DNA from: Cellulomonas terrae
GTDB lineage: Bacteria; Actinomycetota; Actinomycetes; Actinomycetales; Cellulomonadaceae
Direction: 5' to 3'
Length of the DNA: 64,000 bases
Assembly: GCF_007990265.1 (NCBI RefSeq)
Contig: NZ_BJWH01000008.1
Span: 62,001 to 126,000, forward strand
Of this stretch, positions 3,442 to 17,162 are shown in pieces (the first letter of the stretch is position 1; every line of letters starts with the position of its first letter). Under the pieces are notes generated by a model that saw nothing but the letters and a program-made list of their open reading frames with translations, was not told where the DNA came from and searched no databases. Position numbers and translations under genes: made by a program.

Positions 3442-4317
3442 TCAGCGTCGGCGGGCCGTCAGCGTGAACGTCGCCGGGAGGCGTTCGGGCCGGTCGCGCA
3501 GGCGGTACTCGTCGATGTCCTCGTCGAGGACCATCAGACCGGGCAGCGCGTCCCACGGGACGCTGTCGTGCTCGGTCAGCGACGTCAGCTCGAGGCCGGC
3601 GTCGAGCACCGCGGTGACGATCTCGCCGAGCCCGTGGTTCCACTCCATCGACCGCGGTTGCGCGACCTTGTCCGCTCCGCCATAGGTGTACTCGTCGCTC
3701 CAGACCAGCGGTTCGGCCTGCTCGAAGTAGGGGAGCTCGAGGGCGGGTGTGACGCCGGACGGGCCGGTGATCCACGGCTGCTGCTCGCGGTCGACGTGCT
3801 CGGCGCCGACCGTCATCGCGAGCGTCGAGAGCAGGACCGGGTGTCCGTCGCGGATGAACAGCCGGCCACCCGGACGCAGGAGGTCCGCGACCGTCTGCGC
3901 CCAGCGGCGGATGCTCGGCAGCCAGCAGATGGCGCCGATGCCGGTGTAGACGAGGTCGAAACGCCGGCCGTCGAGCGCGTCCGGTGCTGCGTAGACGTCG
4001 GACTGGACGTAGTCGATGGTCGCTCCGGCGCGGGTGGCCAGGCTGCGGGCCACGTCGAGGGAGGCGCCGGACAGGTCGACGCCGGTCATGCGCGCGCCCA
4101 GGCGGGCGAGGCTCAGGGTGTCGGTGCCGAGGTGGCACTGCAGGTGGACGCCGTCGAGGCCGGCGATGTCGCCGAGGCGGGGGCGGTCGAACTCGACGAC
4201 GGCCGACAGGCGGTGCGGGTCGGCGAGGAGCTCGTCGATGCCGTAGCCCTGGGCGTGGACCGCGGCGCGGCTGTCCCAGTTGGTGCGGTTGAGGTCCAGG
4301 TACTCGTCGGCGGGCAT
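3442..4317 (-). CDS. Class I SAM-dependent methyltransferase
   Basis: 291 aa. The SAM-binding core is visible: LQCHLGTDTLSLARLGARMTGVDLS resembles motif I plus the acidic residue after beta 2, and there is a motif near LLRPGGRLFIRDGHP. The substrate is unknown. Start ATG 4317 is supported by ACGGTA on the plus strand (TACCGT read on this strand) 7 nt upstream, suggesting a leaderless transcript; a GTG at 4350 is the alternative. It lies 74 nt downstream of the PurD-like gene on the same strand. It could be a tailoring gene of that island, but its own promoter-like box argues that it is separate. Confidence 0.8.
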   Translation of the reverse strand: MPADEYLDLNRTNWDSRAAVHAQGYGIDELLADPHRLSAVVEFDRPRLGDIAGLDGVHLQCHLGTDTLSLARLGARMTGVDLSGASLDVARSLATRAGATIDYVQSDVYAAPDALDGRRFDLVYTGIGAICWLPSIRRWAQTVADLLRPGGRLFIRDGHPVLLSTLAMTVGAEHVDREQQPWITGPSGVTPALELPYFEQAEPLVWSDEYTYGGADKVAQPRSMEWNHGLGEIVTAVLDAGLELTSLTEHDSVPWDALPGLMVLDEDIDEYRLRDRPERLPATFTLTARRR

Positions 4318-4390
4318 CTGCCGGACGGTAGCAGTGCGGTCGTCGCTCACCAGCGGCACGGACGCTCCGGCGGTCTCCGACGGCGTGGTG

Positions 4391-5704
4391 TCAGACCTGC
4401 GCCAGGTCGCGTGGCTCCCGCCGCCCGGCTGCGACGTCGGCGAGGTGGGCCTGCGAGCGCCAGCCGATGTCGGCACGGTGGTGCTCGCCGTCGAACCGGA
4501 TCGCGTCGACGGTCGCATAGGCGCGCTCTCGGGCCTCGGCGAAGGAACCGCCCACGCCGGTCACGATGAGGACGCGCCCCCCGCTCGTCACGAGCTGCCC
4601 GTCACGCACCGATGTCCCTGCGTGGAAGACGATCGAGTGCGCGTCGGGGTGCGTGGGGAGGGTGATCGCGTCACCGGCGCGGGGTGCACCGGGATAGCCG
4701 GAGGCAGCCATGACGACGCACAAGGCGGAGCCGTCGCGCCAACGGACGTCGAGCTGGTGCAGCGAACGCCCGTCGACGGCTCGCGTGATGGTGACGAGGT
4801 CCGTCTCCAGCAGGGGGAGGGTGACCTCCGCCTCCGGGTCGCCGAACCGGGCGTTGAACTCGATGACGTGAGGGCCGTCGGCCGTCCAGATGAGGTTGGC
4901 GGTGATGACGCCCCGGTAGTCGATGCCTCTGGCCCGCAGCGCGGCGAGCAGCGGGACGAAGATCCGTTCGATCGAGAGGTGCTCGGCTCCGTGCAGGGAC
5001 GGGACCGGCGCGTACGCGCCCATGCCGCCGGTGTTCGGGCCCGAGTCTCCGGCTCCGACGGGCTTGTGGTCCTGGGAGATCGGCATGGGAACGAACGCGT
5101 CACCGTCGGTGAAGACCATCAGCGAGAACTCCTCGCCGACGAGGAACTGCTCGACGAGCACGGTCGAGCCGGAGGTGCCGAACACGCCGGTGTCGAGCAT
5201 GGCCGTCACCGCCTGCTCGGCTTCGGCGCGGGTCCGGCACACGACGGCACCCTTGCCCTGGGCCAGACCGTCGGCCTTCACGACGAGCGGGAGCGCGTGG
5301 GTCGCGATGTGAGCCAGGGCGGCTGCGGAGTCCTGGAAGCGCACCGCGGTGGCGGTGGGGATCCCCGCCTCGATCATGAGGTCCTTCGCCCACGACTTGC
5401 TGGTCTCGAGGCGGGAGGCGTCCCGTCCGGCGCCGAGCACGGGCACGGCCCGGGTGCGGAGGGCGTCGGCGACGCCCGCGTCGAGGGCGACCTCGGGCCC
5501 CACGATCGCGCAGTCGACCTGCTCGTCCGTCGCCAGCCTCGTCAGGCCCTCGACGTCGGTGACGGCGACGTCGACCGTCCGGCACAGGCCGGCGATGCCA
5601 GGGTTGCCCGGTGCGGCGATCACCTCGACCGACGGGTCGTTGGTCAGGAGGTGATGGACGATCGCGTGCTCGCGTCCGCCGCTGCCGACTACCAAGACTC
5701 GCAC
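4391..5704 (-). CDS. PurD-type ATP-grasp ligase (paralogue A)
   Basis: ATP-dependent carboxylate-amine ligase of the phosphoribosylamine-glycine ligase (PurD) fold, 437 aa, usual PurD length. Diagnostic blocks are all present: VVGSGGREHA, AAPGNPG, IVGPE, ETSKSWAKDLM, VVKADGLAQGKG, SQDHKPVG, GPNTGGMGAY, EFNARFGDPEAE and the C-terminal EHHRADIG. It could be the housekeeping purD, but it sits at the end of an operon-like array with two other PurD paralogues, an HprK-like kinase and an oxoamine synthase, and no other purine gene is in the window. I therefore favour a role in the pathway of this island. GTG 5704 is the start that retains the whole Rossmann-like motif. The gap to the next upstream gene is 98 nt and contains a hairpin. 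Confidence 0.85.
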   Translation of the reverse strand: MRVLVVGSGGREHAIVHHLLTNDPSVEVIAAPGNPGIAGLCRTVDVAVTDVEGLTRLATDEQVDCAIVGPEVALDAGVADALRTRAVPVLGAGRDASRLETSKSWAKDLMIEAGIPTATAVRFQDSAAALAHIATHALPLVVKADGLAQGKGAVVCRTRAEAEQAVTAMLDTGVFGTSGSTVLVEQFLVGEEFSLMVFTDGDAFVPMPISQDHKPVGAGDSGPNTGGMGAYAPVPSLHGAEHLSIERIFVPLLAALRARGIDYRGVITANLIWTADGPHVIEFNARFGDPEAEVTLPLLETDLVTITRAVDGRSLHQLDVRWRDGSALCVVMAASGYPGAPRAGDAITLPTHPDAHSIVFHAGTSVRDGQLVTSGGRVLIVTGVGGSFAEARERAYATVDAIRFDGEHHRADIGWRSQAHLADVAAGRREPRDLAQV

Positions 5705-5753
5705 CGTGCTGCCCCTCGATCGTTCGTCGCCGCCGACGGGCGGCCGGGTGAAT

Positions 5754-5777
5754 CCCCGTGGAGGGTAGCCCACGGGG
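5754..5777 (-). terminator. Intercistronic hairpin in the ATP-grasp operon
   Basis: CCCCGTGG and CCACGGGG form a perfect 8-bp stem with an 8-nt loop in the 98-nt gap between the unrecognised gene (5803-7104) and PurD-like paralogue A. There is no T-run. It may be a partial terminator or processing site that sets the last gene apart from the tightly overlapping ones upstream. Confidence 0.4.
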
Positions 5778-5802
5778 AGGGTCGTTCGACGGCTCCGTCC
5801 CG

Positions 5803-7104
5803 TCAGGGGGCACCGCCGGCGATGGCGTCGAAGGCGTTTGCGCCCGGTCGGAGCGGGCAGGCCTCGTCCAGCAGCGTGAACATGACGACGGCGCCCAGCA
5901 GGTCGGCCGGGTTGTCTCCGCCGAGCACCGGTTCGACACCGTGCTGCTGCCGGCCGTAGCGCCGCCAGTCCTCGACGTCCCGGCGCCCCGGGCCTGCGGC
6001 GCCGGCCTCGGTCACGTAGCGGTGCTGCGCGGGGCACCAGCCGCGCGGGTGCTCGTCCGCGGCGTCGTGCCACTCGATCGCGCCGTCCGCGGCCGACGTC
6101 GCGACCGACGCGCGCTCCCTGACCGTCCGGAGGAACTCGGCGAACGACCGGTACCCGAACGGCCGGGCGCCGCGCCGGCTCTGGAAGCGCGCCGTGTGGG
6201 TGAGTCGACGGGTGCCTGCGGCGACGTCGGCGGCGCCGTGGCGTGCGGCGCCGGCGGTGGCGACGTCGTCGGGCTGGCCGAGCCAGCGCCTGGTGAGCAG
6301 GGTGCCCAAGCCGTAGAGGACGGCGATCTCGGCGTTCTCGACGAAGAATCGTGGAGCGACGAACAAGGCGTGGGACTCGTCCTGCCGGGGTGCATCCAGA
6401 GCCGACTGCCAGTCGTCGCGCTGCATGATCCGGGCTGGCAGCGCGACTCCGGTGCGCTCCCGAACTGCGGTCAGAAGGGTGCTCGTGGCGTCCCGGAGGG
6501 GTTCCGCCCGGTACCGCGCGACCTCCGCGGCGGGGAGCACCCGGTCAACCGAGAGCCTGAGGTGCGCCCAGGTGAGCCGCTGCAGCTCGTCGGCGTCCTG
6601 CGCGAGGTCGACGAGCTCCGGTCGTGAGGCGCGCAGTGCGTCACCGGCCCGTCGGAAGGGGTCGCTCAGGAGCTCGGCCAGTCCGACGACCACGCGCTGG
6701 ACCTCGACCGGATAGTCGTGCCCGGTGCGCGTCCCGCCGTCGAGGGATCCGTCGAGGTACCGGTCGGCGAGCCGCCACAGGGCGCTGTCCGGGTCCGCGA
6801 GGTCCGCAGGTCGCGTCCCGCTGCGCACTGCTCTGCCCGCGCCGACGACTCCGGGGAGTGCGATCGTCCCGGCGACGACGGCGCCGTGCAGCACCCGGGC
6901 GCTCGTGTACGCGCGAGCCAGTGCGGACATCGTGTCCGCGTCGTGCGGCGACCGCGGCAGGTCACGCACGACGTGCAGGGCACGCGTCGTCCATCCGAGC
7001 TCGTCGCTGCCGAGGGTCCCGCCGCCCGCCAGCAGAGCGGCGAGCGCGTCGGGGTGCCTGCGCAACGCCCCCAGGTCGGAGACGGGGGAGGTCGTCGGCG
7101 TCAT
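5803..7104 (-). CDS. Unrecognised protein in the ATP-grasp island
   Basis: A 433-aa protein that I do not recognise. It is mostly helical-looking, with no signal peptide or convincing membrane segment. Notable features are a motif ARIMQRDDWQ near the middle, LFVAPRFFVENAEIAVLYGLGTLL, a short run GRRDVEDWRRYGRQQHG and two Cys residues in the C-terminal quarter (RGWCPAQH and DEACPL). ATG 7104 overlaps the stop of the HprK-like gene by ATGA, so the two are translationally coupled and probably act in the same pathway. It may be a novel enzyme or a partner protein of the ligases. Confidence 0.75.
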   Translation of the reverse strand: MTPTTSPVSDLGALRRHPDALAALLAGGGTLGSDELGWTTRALHVVRDLPRSPHDADTMSALARAYTSARVLHGAVVAGTIALPGVVGAGRAVRSGTRPADLADPDSALWRLADRYLDGSLDGGTRTGHDYPVEVQRVVVGLAELLSDPFRRAGDALRASRPELVDLAQDADELQRLTWAHLRLSVDRVLPAAEVARYRAEPLRDATSTLLTAVRERTGVALPARIMQRDDWQSALDAPRQDESHALFVAPRFFVENAEIAVLYGLGTLLTRRWLGQPDDVATAGAARHGAADVAAGTRRLTHTARFQSRRGARPFGYRSFAEFLRTVRERASVATSAADGAIEWHDAADEHPRGWCPAQHRYVTEAGAAGPGRRDVEDWRRYGRQQHGVEPVLGGDNPADLLGAVVMFTLLDEACPLRPGANAFDAIAGGAP

Positions 7105-8300
7105 GGGACCGGGACTGGGGAGGCGAGCTCGAGGAGCAGGTCGAGTGCCCGGCGACCCCGCTCCCCTCGCAGGTCGCCGAAGCGCATCGTCGCGAGCGGT
7201 ACCTCGTGGACGAGGCGGTCGACGAGGTCGTCGGCGGCCCGCCGAAGGTCCATCTCGGACGCGGTCCGCCACCGGAGCCAGTCGGGGTAGTGGTCGTCAG
7301 ACGGGGTGAAGCACTGCGACCGCAGCACCGCGGCCGCTTCCTGTCGGGTGGCGGGACGCACCTCGGGTTCGTCGCAGCCGAGGTCGAGCCGTGGGAGCAC
7401 GACGCACGACAGCGCCGCGTGCGGGGCGACCCGGGCGCCGAGGCTGCCGGCGAGCTCCTCGGCCGTGAGCTCCAGCTTGTCGGGCATGGCAGCGAGCTCC
7501 CCGGGGGATCTCGTCCTCAGGAGCTCGTGCCGTGCGTCGGGGCCGAGCCGGGTCTGCGGTTCGTACCCCCAGCCGCCGCCGCGCTCCATCCATGTCCGGA
7601 GCTGCGGGAAGTGATACAGGGTTCCCATCCCGATCGCCGCCGTGGTGGGCCACGGGAGCGCCGTCCAGGCACCGTCCTGCGACCTGCCTACGTAGCTGCG
7701 GTCGTTCGACAGGTACTCGGCGCCCGCCTCGAGCAGGCTGATGACGGTCGTCGACTTGCCTGCGCCCTTCTCGCCGCAGAACACCAGCCCATGGCCGTCG
7801 ACGACGACAGCGCCCGTGTGGAACACCAGGTGGCCGTCGCGCTCCACGTTCTTCGTGAACATCTCCCGCAGGCACCGGATGGGCTCGGCCTTCGACTCGG
7901 GGTCGGCGGGGGAGCCCAACGTGACGCAGCGGTCACCCGGCCGCGCCAGGATGACGCTCGGCCGGTCGACGTGCGACCACGCGAGCCAGCCGTCTCCTAG
8001 GTCCACCTCATGGACGGGATAGCTCTGGTAGACGGTGGCGCGCCGGCCGGGCAGTGCGTCGAGCGCACGGCGCACCGACGCCGTGAAGCTCGGGTCCTCG
8101 TGGGAGACGAGCTGCGCGGGTTCGTCCTCGGGCGCCTCGTCGAAGCGGTACTGCGGCGCCGTGTACTGCTCGAGCCACGCGAGGTGCTGCGGCGTGTTCG
8201 CCGCGACGACGACCGTGTGGGGGCCGAACCCGGCACGGACGCGGTGGGCGGCGGCGCCGTCGACGACGCGGAGGACCTCGTGCAGCAGGCCGGTGCTCAC
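7101..8300 (-). CDS. HprK-like P-loop kinase
   Basis: 399 aa. A P-loop GEKGAGKST at residues 176-184 is preceded by VFHTGAVVVDGHGLVFCG, the pattern of the HPr-kinase-like proteins found in peptide natural-product clusters rather than of true HprK of sugar regulation. Some such homologues phosphorylate lasso peptides on a Ser side chain; others have no known substrate. The N-terminal ~150 residues form an extra domain. Start GTG 8300 overlaps the upstream ligase stop by GTGA. In this island Ser and Thr residues of the 18-aa peptide (16252-16308), or a small-molecule intermediate, are candidate substrates; this is inference. Confidence 0.82.
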   Translation of the reverse strand: MSTGLLHEVLRVVDGAAAHRVRAGFGPHTVVVAANTPQHLAWLEQYTAPQYRFDEAPEDEPAQLVSHEDPSFTASVRRALDALPGRRATVYQSYPVHEVDLGDGWLAWSHVDRPSVILARPGDRCVTLGSPADPESKAEPIRCLREMFTKNVERDGHLVFHTGAVVVDGHGLVFCGEKGAGKSTTVISLLEAGAEYLSNDRSYVGRSQDGAWTALPWPTTAAIGMGTLYHFPQLRTWMERGGGWGYEPQTRLGPDARHELLRTRSPGELAAMPDKLELTAEELAGSLGARVAPHAALSCVVLPRLDLGCDEPEVRPATRQEAAAVLRSQCFTPSDDHYPDWLRWRTASEMDLRRAADDLVDRLVHEVPLATMRFGDLRGERGRRALDLLLELASPVPVP

Positions 8301-9598
8301 GGTGACTCCTGTCGGCTCGTGGGGGCGGAGACGGCGAGGTCTGCGGTCGTCGTGCCGATGTCGTCCCGGAACGTGACCCCGCCGAGGGATGCGGCGACGA
8401 GCGCGGCGGTCGCGCGTGCTTGCGCTGCGGCGGTCTCGAGGTCCGGCGCGGTCGCGTTGCACGACACGACGCGTCCGCCGCTGGGCGTGAGCCCGTGGCC
8501 GGTCCGACGTGTCTCGTAGAAGAGGAGGTCCGCGTCGGACAGCAGGGCGCTGGGGAGCACGACGTCGTGGCGTGGTCCGCCGGGGTAGCCGTCGCGGGCC
8601 ACGGTGGTCGTGACCGAGGCCAGCGGGCTGGTGCGCAGGTCCGTCGTTCCCGCGAGTGAACCGTGCGCGGTGGCCAGGAGCAGGTCGACCAGCGTGACGT
8701 CCAGCAGCGGCAGCACCGTCTGTGTCTCGGGGTCCCCGAAGTGGCTGTTGACCTCCAGGAGCACCGGGCCGTCAGGCCCGACGACGACGTTCGTGGTCGC
8801 CGATCCGACGTACGGCCGTCCGAGCTCCGCCATCTCGAGAAGCATGCGTCCGAGGGCGCCGAAGACGATGTCGGCGACCCTGTCGTCGACCGGCGCGGGA
8901 GCGACCGCGCCCATGCCACGGGTCAGGGCGCTGCGACTGTCCCGGGCGACGCGGTTGTACTCGTGGATCACGGGCAGGAGCACCAGGCCGCCGCGGCCGT
9001 CGGTCAGCACGGAGAACGAGTACTCGGGCCCGGGCACGAACTCCTCGACCAGGACCGCGGCCGTCGCCACCTCGCGGGCGAGGATGTCCCGCAGGGCGGA
9101 CCGTGCCCCCTGTGCGTCGTCGACGATCCGGACGCCGGTGCCGAGCGGTGGGCCGTCGACCTTCACCACGGCCGGATAGGACCAGGATGCGCAGTCCGCC
9201 AGTGCGGCGAGCGCGCTCGGGAACGCGCGCCACGGCGGTGTCGGCACCTCGGCGGCCGTCATGACGTCCTTGCCGAACGTCTTGCTCTGCTCGAGCACGG
9301 CGGCCGCGCGGGTCGGTCCGACGCAGGGGACTCCGACGTGGAGAAGGGCATCCGCCAGGCCCTGGAAGAGCAGGGACTCGTCGAGGACGACGGCGAGCTC
9401 GATGCGCCGGTCGGCGGCCCAGTCGGTGAGCCGGCGAGGCGGTTCGACGGGTGCCGGCGCGGGGAGCGCGCCCGTCGAGTCCAGTGCGGGGTTGCTCGGC
9501 GCCGTCCAGACCTCGGAGCACCCCTCGGCGACGAGCCGCCGCACGAGCGCGTGCTTCCTGGCGCCGGTTCCGACCACGAGCACCCGAGGTCCGCTCAT
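8297..9598 (-). CDS. Diverged PurD-type ATP-grasp ligase (paralogue B)
   Basis: A 433-aa PurD-fold protein with altered signature positions compared with its two neighbours: GTGARKHA instead of GSGGREHA, SNPALDS instead of GNPG, VVKVDGPPLGTGV instead of VVKADGLAQGKGA, HEYNRV instead of QDHKPV, RGMGAVAPAP instead of TGGMGAY, and NSHFGDPE instead of NARFGDPE. The Mg/ATP-binding EVNSHFGDPETQ core remains, so it may still be catalytic but on different substrates, or it may be a regulatory pseudo-ligase. ATG 9598 overlaps the previous stop by ATGA. It sits between paralogue C and the HprK-like gene. Confidence 0.85.
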   Translation of the reverse strand: MSGPRVLVVGTGARKHALVRRLVAEGCSEVWTAPSNPALDSTGALPAPAPVEPPRRLTDWAADRRIELAVVLDESLLFQGLADALLHVGVPCVGPTRAAAVLEQSKTFGKDVMTAAEVPTPPWRAFPSALAALADCASWSYPAVVKVDGPPLGTGVRIVDDAQGARSALRDILAREVATAAVLVEEFVPGPEYSFSVLTDGRGGLVLLPVIHEYNRVARDSRSALTRGMGAVAPAPVDDRVADIVFGALGRMLLEMAELGRPYVGSATTNVVVGPDGPVLLEVNSHFGDPETQTVLPLLDVTLVDLLLATAHGSLAGTTDLRTSPLASVTTTVARDGYPGGPRHDVVLPSALLSDADLLFYETRRTGHGLTPSGGRVVSCNATAPDLETAAAQARATAALVAASLGGVTFRDDIGTTTADLAVSAPTSRQESP

Positions 9599-10869
9599 CG
9601 GGCCGGCTCCCACACCGACCGGCGCCCGATGTCGGTGCGGTGGTGCTCGCCGTCGAAGCGGATCGTCGCGACGCGGTCGTAGGCCGCGGTGGCGGCCTCC
9701 TCGAACGACGTCCCCGTCCCCGTGACGACCACGACGCGGCCTCCTGCCGTCACGAGGTCGTCACCCGCGCGCGCCGTCCGACCGAGGAACGCGAACGAAC
9801 CGCCGTCGGCCTCGACGCCGTCGTACCCGTGGATCGTGTCGCCGGTGCGCGTCCGGCCGGGGTACCCCTCGGCGGCCATCGCGACCGACAGCGCGGCGCG
9901 GTCGCTCCACACGACGGGGAGGGCGCCCAGGCGGCGCTGGTGGATCGCCTCGGCCACGTCGACCAGGTCGGCCTCCAGCAAGGGGAGCACGACCTCCGCC
10001 TCGGGGTCTCCGAAGCGGGCGTTGAACTCGAGGACCGACGGACCGTCGGCAGTGATCATCAGGTTGGCGCACACCACGCCGCGGTAGTCGATGTCTCGGG
10101 CAGCCAGGGCGGAGATCAGGCGGGTGCCGATGAGCCGGTCGAGCTCGGACTCGAGGTCAGGCCCCACCGCGCGCACGGGCGTGTATGCGCCCATGCCGCC
10201 GGTGTGCGGTCCGGTGTCACCGTCGCGCACCGGCTTGTGATCCTGCGTCGTCGGCATGACGGCCAGGTCGGACCCGTCGGTGAAGAACATGTAGCTGCAC
10301 TCGTAGCCGTCGAGGAACTGCTCCACGACGACCGTCGCACCGCTCTCGCCGAGCTCGCGGTGGTCGAGCATCGCCTCGATCGTCCGGTCCGCCTCGTCGA
10401 GCGTGCGGCAGACGACGGCACCCTTCCCCTGGGCGAGGCCGTCGGCCTTGACCACGACCGGTGCGCCGAGGGCACGGCAGTACGACTTGGCGAGCGTGCT
10501 GTCGGTGAAGGTCTCGTAGTCCCCGACGGGGATCCCGGCGTCGCGACACACGGACTTGGCCCAGCTCTTGCTCGACTCGAGCCGGGCGCCGGCAGTCCCC
10601 GGACCGACGGTCGGGATGCCGGCCTGGCGCAGGTGCTCGGCGACGCCTGAGGCGAGTGCGTCCTCGGGGCCGACGATGACGAGGTCGATGCCTGTCCGCG
10701 CCGCCCAGGTGGCGGTCTCGCCGGGCGCGGTGACCCCGATGCAGGTGGCGTGCTGGGTCATGCCCGGGTTGCCCGGGGCCGCGAAGAGCCGGCTGACGCG
10801 GGTGCTCCGTGACAGCGCCCAGACGATCGCGTGCTCGCGGGCGCCCGATCCGACGACGAGCACCTTCAC
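9595..10869 (-). CDS. PurD-type ATP-grasp ligase (paralogue C)
   Basis: A 424-aa ligase with intact PurD blocks: VVGSGAREHA, AAPGNPG, IVGPED, ESSKSWAKSV, VVKADGLAQGKGA, TTQDHKPVRDGD, GPHTGGMGAY, EFNARFGDPEAE and EHHRTDIGRRS. Its 3' end and that of paralogue A are nearly the same at DNA level (a stretch around 9624-9662 versus 4448-4500), pointing to duplication. GTG 10869 overlaps the stop of the oxoamine synthase gene by GTGA. The expected chemistry is acyl-phosphate formation followed by amide bond formation; the amine and acid partners are unknown. Confidence 0.86.
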   Translation of the reverse strand: MKVLVVGSGAREHAIVWALSRSTRVSRLFAAPGNPGMTQHATCIGVTAPGETATWAARTGIDLVIVGPEDALASGVAEHLRQAGIPTVGPGTAGARLESSKSWAKSVCRDAGIPVGDYETFTDSTLAKSYCRALGAPVVVKADGLAQGKGAVVCRTLDEADRTIEAMLDHRELGESGATVVVEQFLDGYECSYMFFTDGSDLAVMPTTQDHKPVRDGDTGPHTGGMGAYTPVRAVGPDLESELDRLIGTRLISALAARDIDYRGVVCANLMITADGPSVLEFNARFGDPEAEVVLPLLEADLVDVAEAIHQRRLGALPVVWSDRAALSVAMAAEGYPGRTRTGDTIHGYDGVEADGGSFAFLGRTARAGDDLVTAGGRVVVVTGTGTSFEEAATAAYDRVATIRFDGEHHRTDIGRRSVWEPAR

Positions 10870-12047
10870 GGCAGGGTCGCGCTCTGTCGGGCCGGCCCGT
10901 GCGCGGACCGGGGATGGTGCCGTCGCAACGACCGCGTGAGGGCTGCCAGGTCGTCGTCGTCGTGCTGCGCGGTGATGGCGAACCGCAGCACCGGGCGGCC
11001 GTCGGGCGCCGCACGTCCCGCGTATCGGGCGCCCAGGACGCCGTCCTCGACGAGGTCCTCCCAGTACCGGTCCGCGGAGCGGTCGTCGGGGGCCTGGACA
11101 GCGACGACGCCCGACGAGGACGGCACGACGAGGTCGCCGAGCTCCGCACGCACCCGCGCCGCGCCCGTCGTGACCCGAGCCGGGCGGCCGGGGTCCTGCC
11201 TCACGAGCCGCCAGGCGGCGAGTGCCGCGGCGGCGGCGGCGGGTGGTGGGCTCGCCGCGTTGCGGAACACGGGCGACGAGCTGCGCAGCCGCGAGACCAG
11301 CTCGGACGGTCCGAGCACGGCGCCTCCCAGCGACCCCAGCGCCTTGGAGAACGTCACCGTCCGTACCGCGACGTCGGCCCGCAGGAGCTCGGCCGTGCCG
11401 AGTCCTCCGCTCCCTAGGACGCCGAACGCATGGGCCTCGTCGACCATGAGCGGAACTCCGTGCCGACGGGCGACAGCGCCGATCCCGACGAGGTCCGCGA
11501 CGTCGCCGAGCACGGGGTAGACACCGCAGACGACGACGGCGGCGACGGGGCCGCGGGTGCGCAGCTGGGTGGCGAGGTCGTCCGGGTCGTCGTGCCGGAA
11601 CGTCGCGACCTGACCGCCGGACAGCTGGACTCCGTCGAAGACCGAGGCGTGGCAGTGTGCGTCGACGACGACGGTGTCCCCGTAGCTCGCCAGCGCACCG
11701 AGCACCCCCAGGTTCGCGGCGTACCCCGTCGTGAACAGGAGGGCCGAGGTCTCGAACGCCTCGGCGAGTTCCTGCTCGAGCGCCTCGTGAACCCCGAGGC
11801 TCCCGCAGGTCACCCGTGAGCCCGACACACCCGTGCCGTACGACAGCGTCGCAGCGACCGCCGCGTCGACCACGGACGGCTCGACGCTCATGCCGAGGTA
11901 GTTGCTCGACAGGAAGTTGCGCACACGCCTGCCGTCGAAGTCCGCCCAGGTGAGGTTGCCCTGGTCGAGCCGGGTCAGCTCGGGGCGGACTGGCGGGGAC
12001 GGCGGGGTGACGGTCGTCCGTGCGAGCGCACGGGCCTGCGTCAGCAT
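10866..12047 (-). CDS. Alpha-oxoamine synthase family PLP enzyme
   Basis: A fold-type I PLP enzyme of the AONS/ALAS/KBL family, 393 aa, which condenses an amino acid with an acyl thioester and loses CO2 to give an aminoketone. Visible motifs are FLSSNYLGM, GSRVTCGS, FTTGYAANLG, HCHASVFDG (PLP-stacking His about 133), VDEAHAFGVLG (Asp and His near 203-206) and TFSKALGSLGG with the Schiff-base Lys 235. No biotin or haem synthesis genes are nearby, so a specialised role is likely. It is the first gene of the minus-strand operon, whose next genes overlap by 4 nt. The acyl donor and amino acid are not known. Confidence 0.88.
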   Translation of the reverse strand: MLTQARALARTTVTPPSPPVRPELTRLDQGNLTWADFDGRRVRNFLSSNYLGMSVEPSVVDAAVAATLSYGTGVSGSRVTCGSLGVHEALEQELAEAFETSALLFTTGYAANLGVLGALASYGDTVVVDAHCHASVFDGVQLSGGQVATFRHDDPDDLATQLRTRGPVAAVVVCGVYPVLGDVADLVGIGAVARRHGVPLMVDEAHAFGVLGSGGLGTAELLRADVAVRTVTFSKALGSLGGAVLGPSELVSRLRSSSPVFRNAASPPPAAAAAALAAWRLVRQDPGRPARVTTGAARVRAELGDLVVPSSSGVVAVQAPDDRSADRYWEDLVEDGVLGARYAGRAAPDGRPVLRFAITAQHDDDDLAALTRSLRRHHPRSAHGPARQSATLP

Positions 12048-12137
12048 CGCAGCGCTCGGGGGGACGTCCGATGCATCAGGGGCTCGTGGTCATCGTGGAG
12101 GAGTTGCCCTACGTCGGCGGGTCTGGGTCGGCAGGTG

Positions 12138-12167
12138 ACGCTACACAACGCCACCATTCGCCCGCAA
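12138..12167 (-). promoter_or_regulatory. Candidate promoter of the minus-strand arm
   Basis: Read on the minus strand, TTGCGG (plus 12162-12167) and TAGCGT (plus 12138-12143) are separated by 18 bp. They lie about 90 nt upstream of the oxoamine synthase start. The TAGCGT hexamer is the same -10 form seen in front of several genes in this window. Confidence 0.45.
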
Positions 12168-12330
12168 TGTCTCCGTCGAGCGGATTCCACGGGCTCCTGG
12201 CGAGGGCTGATGTGACTCACGGACGACTCGTCGACCTTGCGCTGTCACGCTTCGTTCAGCCGCCTCAACTGCGCGGACGCGCGCGCGGAGGCTAGCAGAA
12301 ATAAGCGCAGTCATAACGACGACTCTGCAA

Positions 12331-12349
12331 AGTCTCATCAATTGAGACT
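12331..12349. promoter_or_regulatory. Dyad operator in the divergent control region
   Basis: AGTCTCA and TGAGACT form a perfect 7-bp dyad with a 5-bp spacer, preceded by a smaller GACT...AGTC dyad at 12321-12334. The site lies in an unusually AT-rich patch (about 12290-12350) in the 515-bp gene-free stretch between the two divergent arms. A TAGCGT box at 12379-12384 could be the -10 of the plus arm. No regulator gene is visible in the island, so the binding protein may be encoded elsewhere. I see no convincing gene in 12048-12562. Confidence 0.5.
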
Positions 12350-12562
12350 GGGCTGTGCGCGGGTGTCGAGGCGCGTGGTAGCGTCCCCGCCGCGCATTGA
12401 CGGCGAATGCACGCACGGTCCTTTCACCACGGCGTGCCTGCGTCGTACGCGCTGTGACGCGCAATCCAGCACGTGCCACGCCGGAAGGGTGCGACGTGCG
12501 TCGGCAGGTCGTCGGCGTGCCCGGTGTCGTGCTCGCGGAACTCTCAGGAACGGCGGTGACGG

Positions 12563-13555
12563 GTGCGGCAGGAGTCGGTCGGTGGTGGATCTCGCCCTGC
12601 GTTCTCGGGCCCGGAGCTCGGCGTGGACGTCCGGGGCCTGACGAGAACGTTCCGCCGACCGGGGCGGCCCGACCGGATCGCGCTCGACGCGGTCGAGCTC
12701 GCGGTCACCGTCGGGACGACGCACGGCCTCCTCGGTCCCAACGGTGCCGGCAAGACGACGCTGTGCAAGATCCTGTCGACCGTCCTCCTGCCGACCTCGG
12801 GAGAGGTACGAGTGCTCGGCCACGACGCTGCACGGGACCCGCGCGCCGTCCGGTCGCAGATCGGCATCGCGTTCGGCGGCGAGCGTGGGCTGTACGGGCG
12901 GTTGACCGTCGAGCAGAACCTCCGGTACTGGGCGGCACTCCTCGGGCTGGGCGGTCGGCAGGCGCGCTCGCGCGTCGCGCTGACGATGGAGCGCTTCGGG
13001 CTCCGCGATCGCGCACGCGACCGGGTCGAGACCCTCTCCCGAGGCTGGAAGCAGCGCGTCCACCTGGCGAGGGCCGTGCTCGGGGAGCCGCAGCTCCTGA
13101 TCCTCGACGAGCCGACCGCCGGACTCGACCCCGTCGCGGCGCGAGCCGTGCGACAGATCGTCTCCGACGAGCTGGCGGGGACCTGCACGGTGCTGCTGAC
13201 CACCCACGACCTGCGCGAGGCCGAGCTGCTGTGCTCCACGGTGACCGTCATGGGTGGGGGACGTGTGCTCGCCGCGGGAAACCCCGCCGAGCTGGCTCTC
13301 ACGGATCGACCCACGCACACGGTCGTGCTCGCCACTCCGGCTCCCGCGGTCGTCGAGCGGCTCTGCGCCTCGGTGCGAGCGACGGCCGTCGAGGTCTCGT
13401 CCGGGCGGACCGAGCTGCGGTTCACCTCGTCGACCGACCTGCAGCAGGGGATCGCGGTCCTCCTCTCCGACGGCGTCGTCGGCTTCACCGTGGGCGAGGG
13501 CTCGCTCGAGGACTACTACGTCGACCTCGTCGGATCCAGGGGTGTCGGCGAGTGA
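12563..13555 (+). CDS. ABC transporter ATP-binding protein (drug/peptide export type)
   Basis: A 330-aa ATPase of an ABC-2 type exporter. It shows Walker A LLGPNGAGKTT (about residues 57-66), a signature segment LSRGWKQRVHLARAV, Walker B LLILDEPTAGLDP, and an H-loop THDLREAE. The family normally acts with ABC-2 permeases, and two follow directly. Start GTG 12563 is taken as the first start in frame with a weak AGGAAC upstream; an internal start near the conserved VDVRGLTRTF cannot be excluded. The C-terminal ~80 residues form the extension common to DrrA-like ATPases. Confidence 0.92.
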   Translation: MRQESVGGGSRPAFSGPELGVDVRGLTRTFRRPGRPDRIALDAVELAVTVGTTHGLLGPNGAGKTTLCKILSTVLLPTSGEVRVLGHDAARDPRAVRSQIGIAFGGERGLYGRLTVEQNLRYWAALLGLGGRQARSRVALTMERFGLRDRARDRVETLSRGWKQRVHLARAVLGEPQLLILDEPTAGLDPVAARAVRQIVSDELAGTCTVLLTTHDLREAELLCSTVTVMGGGRVLAAGNPAELALTDRPTHTVVLATPAPAVVERLCASVRATAVEVSSGRTELRFTSSTDLQQGIAVLLSDGVVGFTVGEGSLEDYYVDLVGSRGVGE

Positions 13556-14328
13556 CCGCCCTGCGCGTCTATCTCGCGGCCGCACGGCTCGCGGCCGAAC
13601 AGCTCCGTCGGGAACCCGACGCCTGGATGGTCCTCGCCACCACTCCGCTGCAGAGCCTGGCCATCGTCACGATCCTGCAGCACACGGGCCGCGACGACCT
13701 GGTCGGCATCGCGATCGTCGGCCCGGGCCTGATGGCGCTGGTCCAGGTCGCCCTGTTCGACGCGGCGGAACAGCTCACCGTGGACCGGTCACGCGGGGTG
13801 CTGGAGCCGCTCGCCGCGACTCCCGCGCCACTCGTCGCGCTGGACCTCGGCCGGTCGACCGTCGTGCTTCTCGTCGCGCTCCTGGGAACCGTCGAGTCGC
13901 TGGCCGTCGTGCACCTCGCGACCGGCGGGCAGTCGAGCGTCCACCACCCCGCCGAGGCGTTCCTCGTCCTGGTCGCCACGGTGTGGGCGACCGCGGGCTT
14001 CGTGCTCCCGTGCACGGCCCTGCTCCTCATGACGCGGGCGACCCGCGCCCTCCAGAACGCGATCCCGTGGCCGCTTGCGCTCGTCAGCGGCGTGCTCGTC
14101 CCGGTGGCCCTCCTGCCCGTGTGGCTCCAGCCCGTCTCACCCTTCCTCTACCTCACGCACTCCGCGGAGCTGCTGCGCGCCACCACCCGACCCGAGCCGG
14201 TCAGCGACCTCTGGACCGGCCTCGCGGTGATCCTCGTCTCGGGTGCGGTCGCCCTCGTCGCCGGCGTCGTCTCCCGCGACCGGGTGTTCGCCCGGCTGCG
14301 GCGCACCGGGGGGTTGTCGCTGACATGA
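13552..14328 (+). CDS. ABC-2 type exporter permease 1
   Basis: A 258-aa inner-membrane protein with about six hydrophobic segments (for example LVGIAIVGPGLMALVQVALF, VVLLVALLGTVESLAVVHLA, LALVSGVLVPVALLPVWLQP, AVILVSGAVALVAGVV). GTG 13552 overlaps the ATPase stop by GTGA. The YLTHSAELLR segment near the C-terminus resembles the conserved region of ABC-2 permeases before the last helix. With the second permease it would form a heterodimeric channel for the product of the island. Confidence 0.88.
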   Translation: MTALRVYLAAARLAAEQLRREPDAWMVLATTPLQSLAIVTILQHTGRDDLVGIAIVGPGLMALVQVALFDAAEQLTVDRSRGVLEPLAATPAPLVALDLGRSTVVLLVALLGTVESLAVVHLATGGQSSVHHPAEAFLVLVATVWATAGFVLPCTALLLMTRATRALQNAIPWPLALVSGVLVPVALLPVWLQPVSPFLYLTHSAELLRATTRPEPVSDLWTGLAVILVSGAVALVAGVVSRDRVFARLRRTGGLSLT

Positions 14329-15128
14329 GGACCGCGACCTTGCTCTCGTCGACGCGCACGCTCCGGTGGAGCGCCCTCGCCGCACTCCAGGACTTCCGGG
14401 TGGTCTACACGATCCCCACCTGGACGCTCGGATGGCTGCTCCGGTGCATCTGCCAGGTCGCCGTGTTCGCCCTGCTCGGGCGGTACGTCGGGGCCGCCGA
14501 CCTGGAGGCGTTCCTGCTCGTCGGGACGGCGGTCCTCGTCGGTCTCGCGTCCGTGTCGATCGTGGTGCAGGCGGCGGCGTGGGAACGGCGGACGGGAACC
14601 CTTCCGCTCCTCGTCGCGAGCCCGGGGAGCCCGTTCGTCGTGTTCGTCGGACGCGGCACCGTCTGGCTGCTCGACGGTCTCCTCGTCAGCACGCTCGTGC
14701 TCTTGATCGTGCCGTCGCTGGTCGGGCAGGCGATCGACCCGCTGCGGGTGCTGTGCGCGGTGCCTCTGCTCGGGCTGACGTACCTCGGTGCCTTCTTCTT
14801 CGCGCAGACCGCTGCCGCGCTGACGCTCGACGCACCGGGAGCACGCAACCTCGTGAGCAACCTGAGTGCCGCCCTCGTCGCACTCCTCTGCGGGATCCAG
14901 GTGCCCCTCGAGGCGTGGCCGTCGTGGGTCGGGGCGATCGCCATGGTCCTGCCGGTGACCCACGGTGTCGTCGTGGTCCGCTCCGTCGTCGTCGACGGGT
15001 CGCTCGACGTCGGAGCGCTTCTCGCCCAGGTCGCGGTCACCGTCGCGTGGGCCGTCGTGGCAGCCGTCACGTTCGGACAGTTCCTGCGCCGGGCTCGACG
15101 GTCCGGCCGCATCGAGTTCGGGGAGTGA
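14325..15128 (+). CDS. ABC-2 type exporter permease 2
   Basis: A 267-aa membrane protein with about six hydrophobic segments, including CQVAVFALLGRYV, AFLLVGTAVLVGLASVSIVV and VAVTVAWAVVAAVTFGQFL. A PLEAWPSWVGAIAMVLPVTHGV segment matches the typical ABC-2 pattern before the last helix. ATG 14325 overlaps the first permease stop by ATGA. The operon arrangement (ATPase, permease, permease) indicates an export or self-protection role. Confidence 0.88.
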   Translation: MRTATLLSSTRTLRWSALAALQDFRVVYTIPTWTLGWLLRCICQVAVFALLGRYVGAADLEAFLLVGTAVLVGLASVSIVVQAAAWERRTGTLPLLVASPGSPFVVFVGRGTVWLLDGLLVSTLVLLIVPSLVGQAIDPLRVLCAVPLLGLTYLGAFFFAQTAAALTLDAPGARNLVSNLSAALVALLCGIQVPLEAWPSWVGAIAMVLPVTHGVVVVRSVVVDGSLDVGALLAQVAVTVAWAVVAAVTFGQFLRRARRSGRIEFGE

Positions 15129-15132
15129 GCAG

Positions 15133-16203
15133 ATGACGTCACCGGTGGTCGATCTCGCGGACCTCGCTGGGCTGCTCGGTGTGGACGAGCGGCAGGACGG
15201 GCTGGCGAGGCGCGTCCTGCGGGCCTCGCGGGTAGTGTCGCCAGGCTTTGCGGCGTACGTGCTGTCGGTGGTCGCACTGTCCGGGCCCGAGCTGAGCGCA
15301 GAGGGCGCCCGGGAGCTGCAGCGGATCGTCGACCGGGCGGACGCGCTGCGGGCGGTCGCCGATCTCGTGGCCGACCTCGAGCCTCAGGTCTGCAAGGGGT
15401 CGACCATCGCGGCCTGCTACCCCGACGGGACGCGTCGGCACGTCGGTGACGTCGACCTCTGCCTGCCTTCCGCGGCGGCCGTCTGGACCGCCGCGGTGCG
15501 CATCGCCGCGGAACGGCCCGTCGAGCGTGTGTCGGTCCAGACGATCGCCGACCAGGTCGCCATCTCGCTCTCCTGGAGCGCTCCGGACCCCCTGTACGAG
15601 GCCGACCTGCATGTCGACGTCTTCACCACGCCCTACTGGGGCGACGGTGCCGGCATGCCGGTCCGCACGTACGACCACACCCTCCCCCCGGCCGTGCAGA
15701 GCGTGATGCTGCTCCTCGAGGAGCGCTGCCAGCGTGCGTGGCAGGCGACCGACTTCGTGGACCTCGCCTACCTGGTGCGGTGCACGGACCAGCCCGAGCT
15801 GGTTCGGGCGGCGGCACCGCTCGGCCTGTCCCGGTGGCTCGGCGCGCTGCTCGACCAGGCTGTGGCGCACGACATCGACGGCGTCGTCCCGCTGGCGCCC
15901 GAGCTTGGTCGCCCGCACGACGGAGCAGTCCGGGCGGTGCGCGGTGCCGTGCACGTCGGGCTGCCGCTCGACGTCGGGCCGAGCTCCGGCGCGGTGGAGA
16001 TGATCGAGACCGACGACGTGACCCTGGTCCACGCCCCGTTCGGGGCGTTTCTCATGACCTCTGTCGCCGACGTCACCGAGGAGCAGGTCGACCGGGCAGA
16101 GGCGCTGCTCGACGACCCGACCTCCCGCGAGGCGCCCGACGTGCGCGTGACGAGGCTCTCGGCGCCCGTCGCACCACGGAGCGGGGCGCTCGCCGCTGGC
16201 TGA
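15133..16203 (+). CDS. Nucleotidyltransferase-family protein (NTP_transf_5-like)
   Basis: A 356-aa protein. The core CKGSTIAACYPDGTRRHVGDVDLCLP has the KG...YP...R..GD.DL pattern of the nucleotidyltransferase family that often accompanies PqqD, HprK-like and peptide-modifying genes. The two Asp of GDVDL would bind metal, with a third acid in DLHVDVF. The family's reaction in peptide clusters is poorly understood. ATG 15133 lies 4 nt after the permease stop with GGGAG upstream, so it is cotranscribed with the exporter. It is followed after 48 nt by the small peptide gene. Confidence 0.8.
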   Translation: MTSPVVDLADLAGLLGVDERQDGLARRVLRASRVVSPGFAAYVLSVVALSGPELSAEGARELQRIVDRADALRAVADLVADLEPQVCKGSTIAACYPDGTRRHVGDVDLCLPSAAAVWTAAVRIAAERPVERVSVQTIADQVAISLSWSAPDPLYEADLHVDVFTTPYWGDGAGMPVRTYDHTLPPAVQSVMLLLEERCQRAWQATDFVDLAYLVRCTDQPELVRAAAPLGLSRWLGALLDQAVAHDIDGVVPLAPELGRPHDGAVRAVRGAVHVGLPLDVGPSSGAVEMIETDDVTLVHAPFGAFLMTSVADVTEEQVDRAEALLDDPTSREAPDVRVTRLSAPVAPRSGALAAG

Positions 16204-16235
16204 CGGGCCGACCGGGCCCGTCTCGTCGACGACGG

Positions 16236-16248
16236 AAAGGAGGTGATC
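16236..16248 (+). promoter_or_regulatory. Perfect extended Shine-Dalgarno sequence
   Basis: AAAGGAGGTGATC is fully complementary to the 3' end of actinobacterial 16S rRNA (GATCACCTCCTTT). GGAGG ends 8 nt before GTG 16252. It is the strongest ribosome-binding site seen in the window and is the main evidence that the tiny ORF behind it is translated, probably at high level. Confidence 0.85.
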
Positions 16249-16251
16249 GCC

Positions 16252-16308
16252 GTGCTGATCTGTTTCGTGCCGAAGGTGCAGAAGTCGACCAAGAAGACGA
16301 AGAAGTAG
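16252..16308 (+). CDS. 18-residue lysine-rich peptide, candidate RiPP precursor or scaffold
   Basis: The predicted product is MLICFVPKVQKSTKKTKK: a hydrophobic N-terminal half with one Cys (residue 4) and a C-terminal half with seven Lys, one Ser and two Thr. It is too small for usual gene callers. GTG 16252 has ideal spacing to a perfect Shine-Dalgarno; an in-frame GTG at 16243 would overlap that site. The gene lies between the nucleotidyltransferase-like and GNAT-like genes on the same strand. Three amide-forming ligases and an HprK-like kinase in the same island make it a candidate substrate: a C-terminal carboxylate or lysine amines for the ligases, Ser 12/Thr 13/Thr 16 for the kinase. 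Alternatively it is a leader peptide that sets translation of the next gene. Confidence 0.7.
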   Translation: MLICFVPKVQKSTKKTKK

Positions 16309-16373
16309 GCGTGACCGTGCGCGCCCGGGGCCGGATGCGGTCCCGGGCGCGCCAGGCCGCCGAGGGGAGCCCC

Positions 16374-17162
16374 GTGTCCGATCACGCACTTGACGAGTAC
16401 CTGTTCGAGGCAGAACAGCGCGGAGCGCTGCACCAGGTCGACGGCCGCCGGGTCGTCCTGGACGTCACGAGAGACCCTGTCACCGACGAGCAGCTCACCT
16501 TCCTGTCCTACGCGGACGACGAGCTGTGGCTCGCTGACAGCGCACTCACCGGGTGGCTGTCGAACGTCCGCGCGGGCTCCGCCGTCGTGGTGCGGTCGAC
16601 ATCGGGGGAGGCGCCGAGCGGGCGCTGGCGGGTGCTCGTCCGGCACGTGTTGCTCGACGCGGTGGGGGATGCGTACGTCGGTCGCAGGTCGGTCGCACGG
16701 ATCCGTCGGGCGGACGGACGGGCGGACGACGAGTTCGTGGCGTGGTGCCTGGCCGAGGCGATCCGCGTCGGCTACGCCGCGCGGGCGGTCGTCGACGGGG
16801 GCATCGCCGCGCTCGTCGACGACGTGATGGAGGACCCGTCGCGCCGGTCCTGGGTCGCCGAGGCGCCGGACGGCGAGCGCATCGGCCAGCTCACGGTCCG
16901 CAGCTGCGACGACAACCTCTCGCTCGGGCTGATCGGGGCGCGGACGGAGCTCGTCGACACGTACGCCACCCAGGACGTCGGTGCGGTCATCGACGACCTC
17001 CTGACGGAGGCGCTGCCGTCGCTCGAGCTTCCCGTGGCCGCGACCGTGACCAGCCCGGCCCCCGAGCGGGAACGCGCCATCCTGGCGGGGCTCGCGTCGA
17101 AGGGATGGCGCACGGCCGCCGTCGACTGGGCGTCGCTCGACGACACCGCCGAGGTGGGGTGA
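16374..17162 (+). CDS. GNAT-fold-like protein downstream of the small peptide
   Basis: A 262-aa protein without a firm family. The second half (WVAEAPDGERIGQLTVRSC..., ELVDTYATQDVGAVIDDLL, VAATVTSPAPERERAILAGLASKGWRTAAVDWASL) has the order of beta-strand and helix blocks of a GNAT acetyltransferase, but the usual acetyl-CoA loop (Q/RxxGxG/A) is not obvious in TQDVGAV, so acyl transfer is uncertain. GTG 16374 has GAGGGGAGC just upstream; in-frame GTGs at 16311 and 16317 would start immediately after the peptide stop. It is the last gene of the plus-strand arm. Confidence 0.75.
   Translation: MSDHALDEYLFEAEQRGALHQVDGRRVVLDVTRDPVTDEQLTFLSYADDELWLADSALTGWLSNVRAGSAVVVRSTSGEAPSGRWRVLVRHVLLDAVGDAYVGRRSVARIRRADGRADDEFVAWCLAEAIRVGYAARAVVDGGIAALVDDVMEDPSRRSWVAEAPDGERIGQLTVRSCDDNLSLGLIGARTELVDTYATQDVGAVIDDLLTEALPSLELPVAATVTSPAPERERAILAGLASKGWRTAAVDWASLDDTAEVG

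Follow-up and report, generated by a model that had tools for sequence, protein, structure and literature searches.

A tiny basic peptide gene, PurD-type ligases and a recurring exporter-nucleotidyltransferase chassis in a putative biosynthetic island of Cellulomonas terrae

Here, we describe a putative biosynthetic island at positions 4391-17162 of a 64,000-nucleotide stretch of the Cellulomonas terrae genome (contig NZ_BJWH01000008.1, positions 62,001 to 126,000; hereafter the window). Its genes form two divergent arms (Table 1). The minus arm encodes, in order of transcription, an alpha-oxoamine synthase (AOS), two ATP-grasp proteins of the PurD type (PurD-C and the diverged PurD-B), an HprK-like kinase, an unknown-family protein, and a further PurD-type ligase (PurD-A). 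The plus arm encodes an ABC transporter ATPase, two permeases, an NTP_transf_5-like nucleotidyltransferase (NTase), an 18-amino acid (aa) basic peptide, and a GNAT-like protein. An earlier note, made from the nucleotide letters alone, had listed these genes and the two divergent arms, and both content and order were confirmed on checking in the window. We find that the plus-arm genes have counterparts in a series of related loci, where they accompany a similarly short peptide gene and a variety of other enzymes.

Results

The plus-arm peptide, MLICFVPKVQKSTKKTKK, contains neither Asp nor Glu and has no recognizable leader. Its gene is preceded by the Shine-Dalgarno sequence AAGGAGG and is, on both strands of the 64-kb window, the sole open reading frame (ORF) of 14-26 aa that starts with ATG or GTG and has a GGAGG or AAGGAG site 4-10 nt upstream, which argues that it is not a chance ORF. 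When three of the peptides described below were tried against NCBIfam and four against Pfam, no model matched.

A search with the NTase recovered a Streptomyces plasmid (locus L048) with homologs of the NTase, the ATPase, both permeases, and the GNAT-like protein. Two further loci came from one genome (G381) by the same route; the first of these has the same peptide as locus L071 and was taken to be the same locus, so that L071 alone was counted. A scan of 84,980 species genomes yielded 20 loci, from organisms named as Streptomyces, Kitasatospora, Streptantibioticus, Saccharothrix, Nocardia, or Streptomonospora. Genes were called with a simple custom caller in 23 loci (these 20 plus L048, L049, and L057) and in 30 kb of the window. 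The ATPase/permease exporter module is present in 21 of the 23, being missing from L049 and L077, and L074 ends before permease B. An M16 peptidase and the GNAT gene were each detected by tblastn in 19 of these 21 loci; the M16 protein of L071 matches PqqF at 2.2e-14, below cut-off. Among 200 genomes of the family to which C. terrae belongs, an NTase profile was positive in three, namely its own and two of the same genus (G160 and G169). With two plasmids added through a search with the G160 NTase (L087 and L088), there are 25 module-bearing loci outside the window.

A tiny basic ORF of 16-23 aa is present in 23 of these 25 loci. The earlier note had staked its view of the peptide as a scaffold on homologous islands keeping such an ORF, and the conserved short precursor gene that marks clusters for ribosomally synthesized and post-translationally modified peptides (RiPPs) is thus found. 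Under a strict rule (ATG or GTG start, with GGAGG or AAGGAG 4-10 nt upstream of it; length 14-26 aa; two or more Lys among the last 12 residues), a scan of the 23 gene-called loci (467,740 bases) returned 17 ORFs, spread over 15 loci and all of them module peptides; 57 ORFs passed when the Lys rule was dropped. The peptides of L060, L066, L070, and L073 were added by a looser, eye-guided search, and those of G160, G169, L087, and L088 were found under looser rules too. No peptide was detected on the 5.2-kb contig of L074, nor in L049 and L077, which are without the module. The tiny ORF is unlisted in the gene tables of the plasmid records L048 (where it encodes MRNHKVGLRPRLDKVKVGR), L087, and L088, although these tables are flagged as incomplete.

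The 23 peptides comprise 21 distinct sequences. RNH occurs in 15, [LM]RP in 20, and a C-terminal Lys or Arg in 17, and FRPK stands at the [LM]RP site of the G160 peptide. A codon comparison of six pairs of peptides showed 25 changes, of which 14 are synonymous, against an expectation of 26% (P = 0.0016). Within the RNH group, the N terminus is nearly invariant and the peptide almost wholly conserved. The G160 counterpart, MQIQFRPKVVKRDTKRK, whose gene sits just upstream of the GNAT and NTase genes, is similar both to the window peptide (as high a score in 33 of 2000 shuffles) and to that of L066, MPLITMRPRLVKVKPKSNR (31 of 2000); each is the best value among seven comparisons, without correction.

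The tiny ORF might instead encode a regulatory leader peptide, that is, a translational attenuator rich in Lys and Arg like some antibiotic-arrest peptides, with the exporter, GNAT, and NTase genes serving as an operon for self-resistance next to the pathway of a small molecule. The K/R-x-K/R stretches and strong Shine-Dalgarno sites would suit this role, as would an ORF that often lies just upstream of the operon, and both the GNAT and the nucleotidyltransferase fold occur commonly in resistance functions. However, in L048, L060, and L072 the ORF and the operon are on opposite strands, and L068 carries the peptide gene, MIRNGISALRPTLDKVKSGK, in three identical tandem copies (at 7475, 7605, and 7735, 130 nt apart); both arrangements favor a gene for a product. 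In the window, moreover, the ORF comes after the NTase gene, and the arms that accompany RNH-type peptides include YcaO and TfuA, a peptide-modifying pair. Attenuation is therefore quite unlikely in our judgment.

The enzymes next to the chassis, as taken from Pfam scans of selected neighboring genes and from record annotation, differ between loci. In L048, L060, L066, and L072, the arm combines AHCY, a cupin, a class III aminotransferase, and a 729-aa protein, all encoded in the same direction as the chassis. L065 has YcaO and TfuA, with homologs in L069. The arm of L058 comprises xylose-isomerase-like, cyclase, Gfo/Idh/MocA, glycosyltransferase, and AdoMet-synthetase-like proteins; that of L071, a class III aminotransferase, a HAD/kinase-like protein, and a MetRS-like protein, with homologs in L075. 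NDK-like, adenylate-forming, and HisZ-like proteins are encoded in L087 and L088, and NDK-like, phosphoesterase, and PP-loop proteins in L057, while a radical SAM pair lies further off from the chassis in L063. In G160 (L083:379-15378), two divergent arms, like those of the window, surround the chassis with two paralogs of a phosphoenolpyruvate (PEP)-binding domain (PEP-utilizers_C), a class V aminotransferase, and pyridoxal phosphate (PLP) enzymes of the PALP and Cys/Met types. G169 (L085:10080-17159 and L086:2703-8667) encodes an HprK-like protein, a PEP mutase (EDKTGLKQNS; we take EDKxxxxxNS to mark this enzyme), a luciferase-HMGL fusion, a split aconitase-like pair, and a methyltransferase. 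PEP mutase-type enzymes form phosphonate pathways, and a phosphonate-type pathway is possibly coupled to a ribosomal mini-peptide in G169.

Closely similar RNH-type peptides accompany the differing arms of L065, L058, L071, L048/L060/L072, and L087/L088. A near-constant peptide beside unrelated arms suggests that the peptide is the constant part of the system; a diversifying RiPP would be expected to show the reverse, a varied peptide with fixed enzymes. This bears on whether the peptide is a classical RiPP precursor, whose N-terminal part would be modified and released as the core, and whose basic C-terminal part would be a follower recognized by the NTase and the GNAT protein. Bottromycin offers a precedent for follower-type precursors. 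The most widely shared motif ([LM]RP, or FRPK in G160) is indeed central, N-terminal segments differ between groups (LICF in the window, SVAF in L057, QIQF in G160, and RNHxxxL in Streptomyces), and the M16 peptidase of most module loci could make the cut. Yet the N terminus of the RNH group stays almost invariant despite the differing arms, unlike a diversifying core, and the window island has no peptidase, so that we consider a classical RiPP unlikely.

It might also be argued that the product of the PurD-AOS arm is an ordinary small molecule, an aminoketone amide, made without the peptide; the chassis would then handle the peptide as a separate bacteriocin or signal. The arms of the island are divergent, PurD-A and PurD-C score as good PurDs, and arms differ freely between loci, all of which speaks for this reading. 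This is countered by linkage elsewhere: in L048-type loci, the arm shares its direction of transcription with the genes for M16, GNAT, NTase, and exporter, an association kept in four loci (L066 without M16), and the called arm genes of L058 follow the NTase gene with several 4-nt overlaps. We consider this separation of arm and peptide very unlikely.

Some features of the related arms are recorded here in their own right. The YcaO-TfuA genes of L065 (2999-7166) and L069 (2967-7185) are divergent from the chassis, and the peptide there, MVRNHKVGLRPRLDKVNVRAGK, might exist in a thioamidated version. Aminoacyl-tRNA-synthetase-like genes beside the chassis (MetRS-like, L071:18542-20113; HisZ-like, L087:15718-17040) hint at amino acid activation for the peptide. 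NDK-like or related proteins also recur by the chassis (L057:8410-9444, L059:16246-17235, L071:13601-14416, and L087:8029-8982), with 26-35% identity between some of them.

The arm of the window island itself is distinguished by its three PurDs, which have the full-length GARS_N/A/C architecture. Relative to the NCBIfam purD cut-off of 288 bits, PurD-A (455) and PurD-C (452) lie above and PurD-B (247) below. With one more on contig C5, the genome has four GARS_A matches in all. The C5 protein is canonical-looking and groups with the PurDs of relatives in a tree of 30 canonical sequences from the family (its own included), three plasmid PurDs, and the island copies. In this tree, PurD-A and PurD-C stand together (100/99) outside the canonical PurDs, and PurD-B is on a very long branch and not placeable. 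At 127 positions that are at least 95% conserved in the 33 canonical rows, 24 are changed in PurD-A, 28 in PurD-C, and 50 in PurD-B. PurD-A and PurD-C retain VVKADGLAQGKG and EFNARFGDPE, motifs whose roles are presumably ATP and metal binding; PurD-B has VVKVDGPPLGTG and EVNSHFGDPE, with GTG for GKG. G266N is common to all three, and R210P (QDHKR to QDHKP) is found in PurD-A and PurD-C. These substitutions may mark a new substrate.

No purine gene was detected among the island genes and the flanking genes scanned, and the three PurDs are apart from the C5 gene, in line with the expectation of the earlier note that the ligases should not sit with purine genes. The trio would thus appear, from the tree and its setting, to be neither the purD of the genome nor part of a purine cluster. 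Of three plasmid purD neighborhoods inspected, two (L050 and L051) contain purH along with further purine genes, and the third (L052) has purB and a SAICAR-synthetase gene nearby. Genomes with several PurDs look rare. More than one match occurs among 394 genomes of the class in C. terrae (4) and G249 (2) alone, with up to four candidates scored per genome, and among 200 genomes of the family in C. terrae (4) and G080 (2) alone. PurD-B was tried as a bait for relatives and rejected, since its matches elsewhere score like canonical PurD.

The AOS has its best matches to SPT and BioF, below the equivalog cut-offs (283 of 500 and 262 of 426 bits, respectively). DEAH, HAS, and SKALG are present, the last of which we take to be the PLP lysine motif, and family and motif together predict an alpha-oxoamine synthase.

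The HprK-like protein was also used as a bait, with matches in 4 of 396 and 3 of 396 genomes, own included. The relatives examined are distant kinases in other cassettes that lack chassis homologs, and this route led no further. A scan of viral contigs with HprK gave no match. Three Streptomyces plasmids (L040:9594-14962, L041:9591-14976, and L042:9441-12801) combine HprK-like, phosphotransferase, and NAD-binding/lactate-dehydrogenase-type genes, to which L040 and L041 add radical SAM and methyltransferase genes. The strict scan detected no Lys-rich mini-ORF in these cassettes. Among 30 related stretches (24 loci searched by tblastn plus stretches of G160, G169, L087, and L088; E ≤ 1e-3 throughout), HprK-like proteins are found in two, G169 (28%, 1e-9), where the gene is near that for the peptide, and, weakly, L073 (30% over 83 aa, 4e-5). 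The L073 match is to a called gene of 386 aa (3564-4724) just upstream of the peptide gene (4935). The unknown-family protein has no relatives in plasmids or in the 30 stretches and no Pfam match above cut-off, and its single-sequence AlphaFold2 model (pLDDT 40) is useless.

For the GNAT-like protein, Pfam gave no match at E ≤ 1. In an hhalign comparison with 16 family members, it scores a probability of 99 (E = 4.8e-18), and its AlphaFold2 model (pLDDT 87) best matches the folds of VipF, Eis2, and MAB_4324, with TM of about 0.4-0.6. Profile alignment thus indicates that it is homologous to the GNAT protein of the family.

The island is flanked on the left by genes for a LacI-type regulator and a solute-binding protein and on the right by a SNF2 helicase gene, which confines it to about 13-14 kb. 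A class I methyltransferase gene could be the final gene of the minus arm, its membership being uncertain. The 4-nt overlaps claimed for the minus arm are present at the first four junctions, and the last junction is a 98-nt gap before PurD-A, whose ORF had been listed from 6073 and most likely starts at 5704. A dyad had also been reported in the control region between the arms; however, 32 of 60 sequences simulated with a first-order Markov model had a stem at least as good as the best one there, and the dyad is not above chance.

Table 1. Features of the island and its immediate surroundings (positions in the window).
Feature	Position	Strand	Remarks
Class I methyltransferase	3442..4317	-	Co-directional; starts 73 nt past PurD-A
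PurD-type ATP-grasp ligase A (PurD-A)	4391..5704	-	52.6% identical to PurD-C
Unknown-family protein	5803..7104	-	No significant match
HprK-like kinase	7101..8300	-	Walker A GEKGAGKS; SNDR
Diverged PurD-type ATP-grasp protein B (PurD-B)	8297..9598	-	Loop GLAAGKG altered to GPPLGTG
PurD-type ATP-grasp ligase C (PurD-C)	9595..10869	-	GARS_N/A/C; purD model match
Alpha-oxoamine synthase (AOS), SPT/BioF-like	10866..12047	-	PLP lysine motif SKALG (presumed)
Divergent intergenic control region	12048..12562	.	Without significant dyad
ABC transporter ATPase	12563..13555	+	Start 12563 or 12623; 49% to L048; Walker A, LILDEP
ABC-2-type permease A	13552..14328	+	34% to annotated permease of L048
ABC-2 permease B	14325..15128	+	PF01061 1.5e-7; 37% to L048
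NTP_transf_5-like nucleotidyltransferase (NTase)	15133..16203	+	Motif KGS(88)...GDVDL(105); hallmark of the family
Basic peptide MLICFVPKVQKSTKKTKK, 18 aa	16252..16308	+	GTG start; Shine-Dalgarno GGAAAGGAGG; proposed carrier or precursor
Tandem-GNAT-fold protein	16374..17162	+	Conserved partner in the family; fold from hhalign and AlphaFold2 model

Discussion

On balance, we lean toward the view that the island is a specialized-metabolite cluster of an apparently undescribed, RiPP-like type, in which a constant chassis is joined to an exchangeable arm and the peptide serves as carrier or precursor. The chassis would consist of the tiny basic ribosomal peptide, the NTP_transf_5-like NTase, the tandem-GNAT protein, and the ABC-2 exporter, with an M16 peptidase in most relatives. 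The arm enzymes would act on the peptide. In the window, the AOS may supply an aminoketone, and PurD-A and PurD-C may activate a carboxylate as an acyl-phosphate and then couple it, through amide bonds, to amines of the peptide or the aminoketone, with PurD-B as a subunit of altered specificity or a helper. The HprK-like kinase could phosphorylate Ser or Thr of the tail KSTKKTKK, and the NTase could act on the phosphorylated or another site, by analogy with the kinase/NTase pair of pseudomycoidin. The exporter would then secrete the product, with a protease, if needed, coming from elsewhere; one M16 peptidase gene is found elsewhere in the same genome.

Several observations weigh against this proposal. 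The earlier note had put forward a signature of PurD, HprK, NTase, and AOS genes, which was found in no other locus among the 30 related stretches, and no homolog of the window PurDs or the AOS was detected there at E ≤ 1e-3. Its peptide-scaffold reading therefore stands in part, supported by the conserved short ORF and the RiPP-type enzymes of some relatives, and not in that signature. The window NTase scores 23.7 bits against PF14907, below the cut-off of 31.2; the HprK-like protein matches TIGR04355 at 6.2e-11, but with 42 bits against a cut-off of 200; and the M16 peptidase of most relatives is absent from the window island. A common origin of all three PurDs is not supported by the tree, which joins PurD-A with PurD-C only. 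Among the related loci, L061 has the module and gave no peptide in the ORF searches, and L087/L088 and L065/L069 are close pairs, so that the 25 loci are not independent. Finally, comparisons of the window peptide with six other peptides are not significant, with 208 to 1936 of 2000 shuffles as good (351 for L071, 497 for L048, and 1936 for L059). Given this weak direct similarity, the membership of the window peptide in the family rests on its position, the homologous chassis, and the G160 bridge.

Parallels exist among known systems. The island shares GARS_N/A/C domains with PurD (GAR synthetase), but has three copies, apart from the fourth in the genome and with substitutions of their own. 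Biosynthesis of pyrroloquinoline quinone (PQQ) involves PqqA, of about 23 aa, and the M16 peptidase PqqF. A very short precursor is thus shared, as is an M16 peptidase in most relatives, whereas the window island is without M16 and its peptide is Lys-rich without Glu-Tyr; no match to a radical SAM or other PQQ-type enzyme was found in the island. Another parallel is with the lasso peptides pseudomycoidin and paeninodin, in which, according to excerpts of one account (PMC8498205), a kinase (an HPr-kinase homolog, K) and a nucleotidyltransferase (N) act on a ribosomal peptide. The island likewise has an HprK-like protein and an NTase beside a ribosomal peptide and an exporter, but its peptide has 18 residues and no recognizable leader, and just two related loci have the HprK-like gene. 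Among the island and flanking genes scanned with Pfam, none matched the lasso cyclase (asparagine-synthetase-like) or the B protein. In the pearlin/3-thiaglutamate pathway, as outlined in parts of PMC9303977 and PMC9016710, the ribosomal peptide TglA is a carrier for small-molecule assembly; TglA has 50 residues and is extended from aminoacyl-tRNA, whereas the island ligases are PurD-type ATP-grasps, and the island proteins scanned had no Pfam match to PEARL (lantibiotic-dehydratase). Graspetide ligases, as summarized in PMC8939145, form lactam and lactone linkages within a peptide. ATP-grasp ligases in a peptide cluster are common to both, but those of the island are of the GARS/PurD type, and the Asp or Glu residues needed for cross-linking are absent from the window peptide, which sets it apart from graspetides. 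Excerpts of the main text of the RiPPER paper (PMC6511847) make no mention of M16, pitrilysin, or nucleotidyltransferase, and its peptide networks might overlap the L065 type. We found no description of such a peptide system in open-license PubMed Central papers, subscription papers and supplements being outside that scope.

A broader reading is that one mini-peptide is a universal carrier on which interchangeable arms, drawn from primary metabolism, build chemically unrelated small molecules. The arms would be PurD and AOS here, and PEP mutase/homocitrate-synthase/aconitase-, MetK-, AHCY-, MetRS-, and HisZ-like enzymes elsewhere. To our knowledge, the three PurDs would then be without precedent as PurD-type amide ligases that work on a peptide carrier. 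We regard this as possible but doubtful, and offer it tentatively.

RiPP genome mining commonly seeks, by signature enzyme, a conserved leader with a variable core. Clusters with a constant peptide and varying enzymes could therefore escape the usual mining rules. If the peptide is a carrier, the family would amount to a naturally modular platform that accepts enzymes recruited from purine, methionine, phosphonate, or nucleotide metabolism, and the action of PurD-type ligases on a ribosomal peptide would be directly testable.

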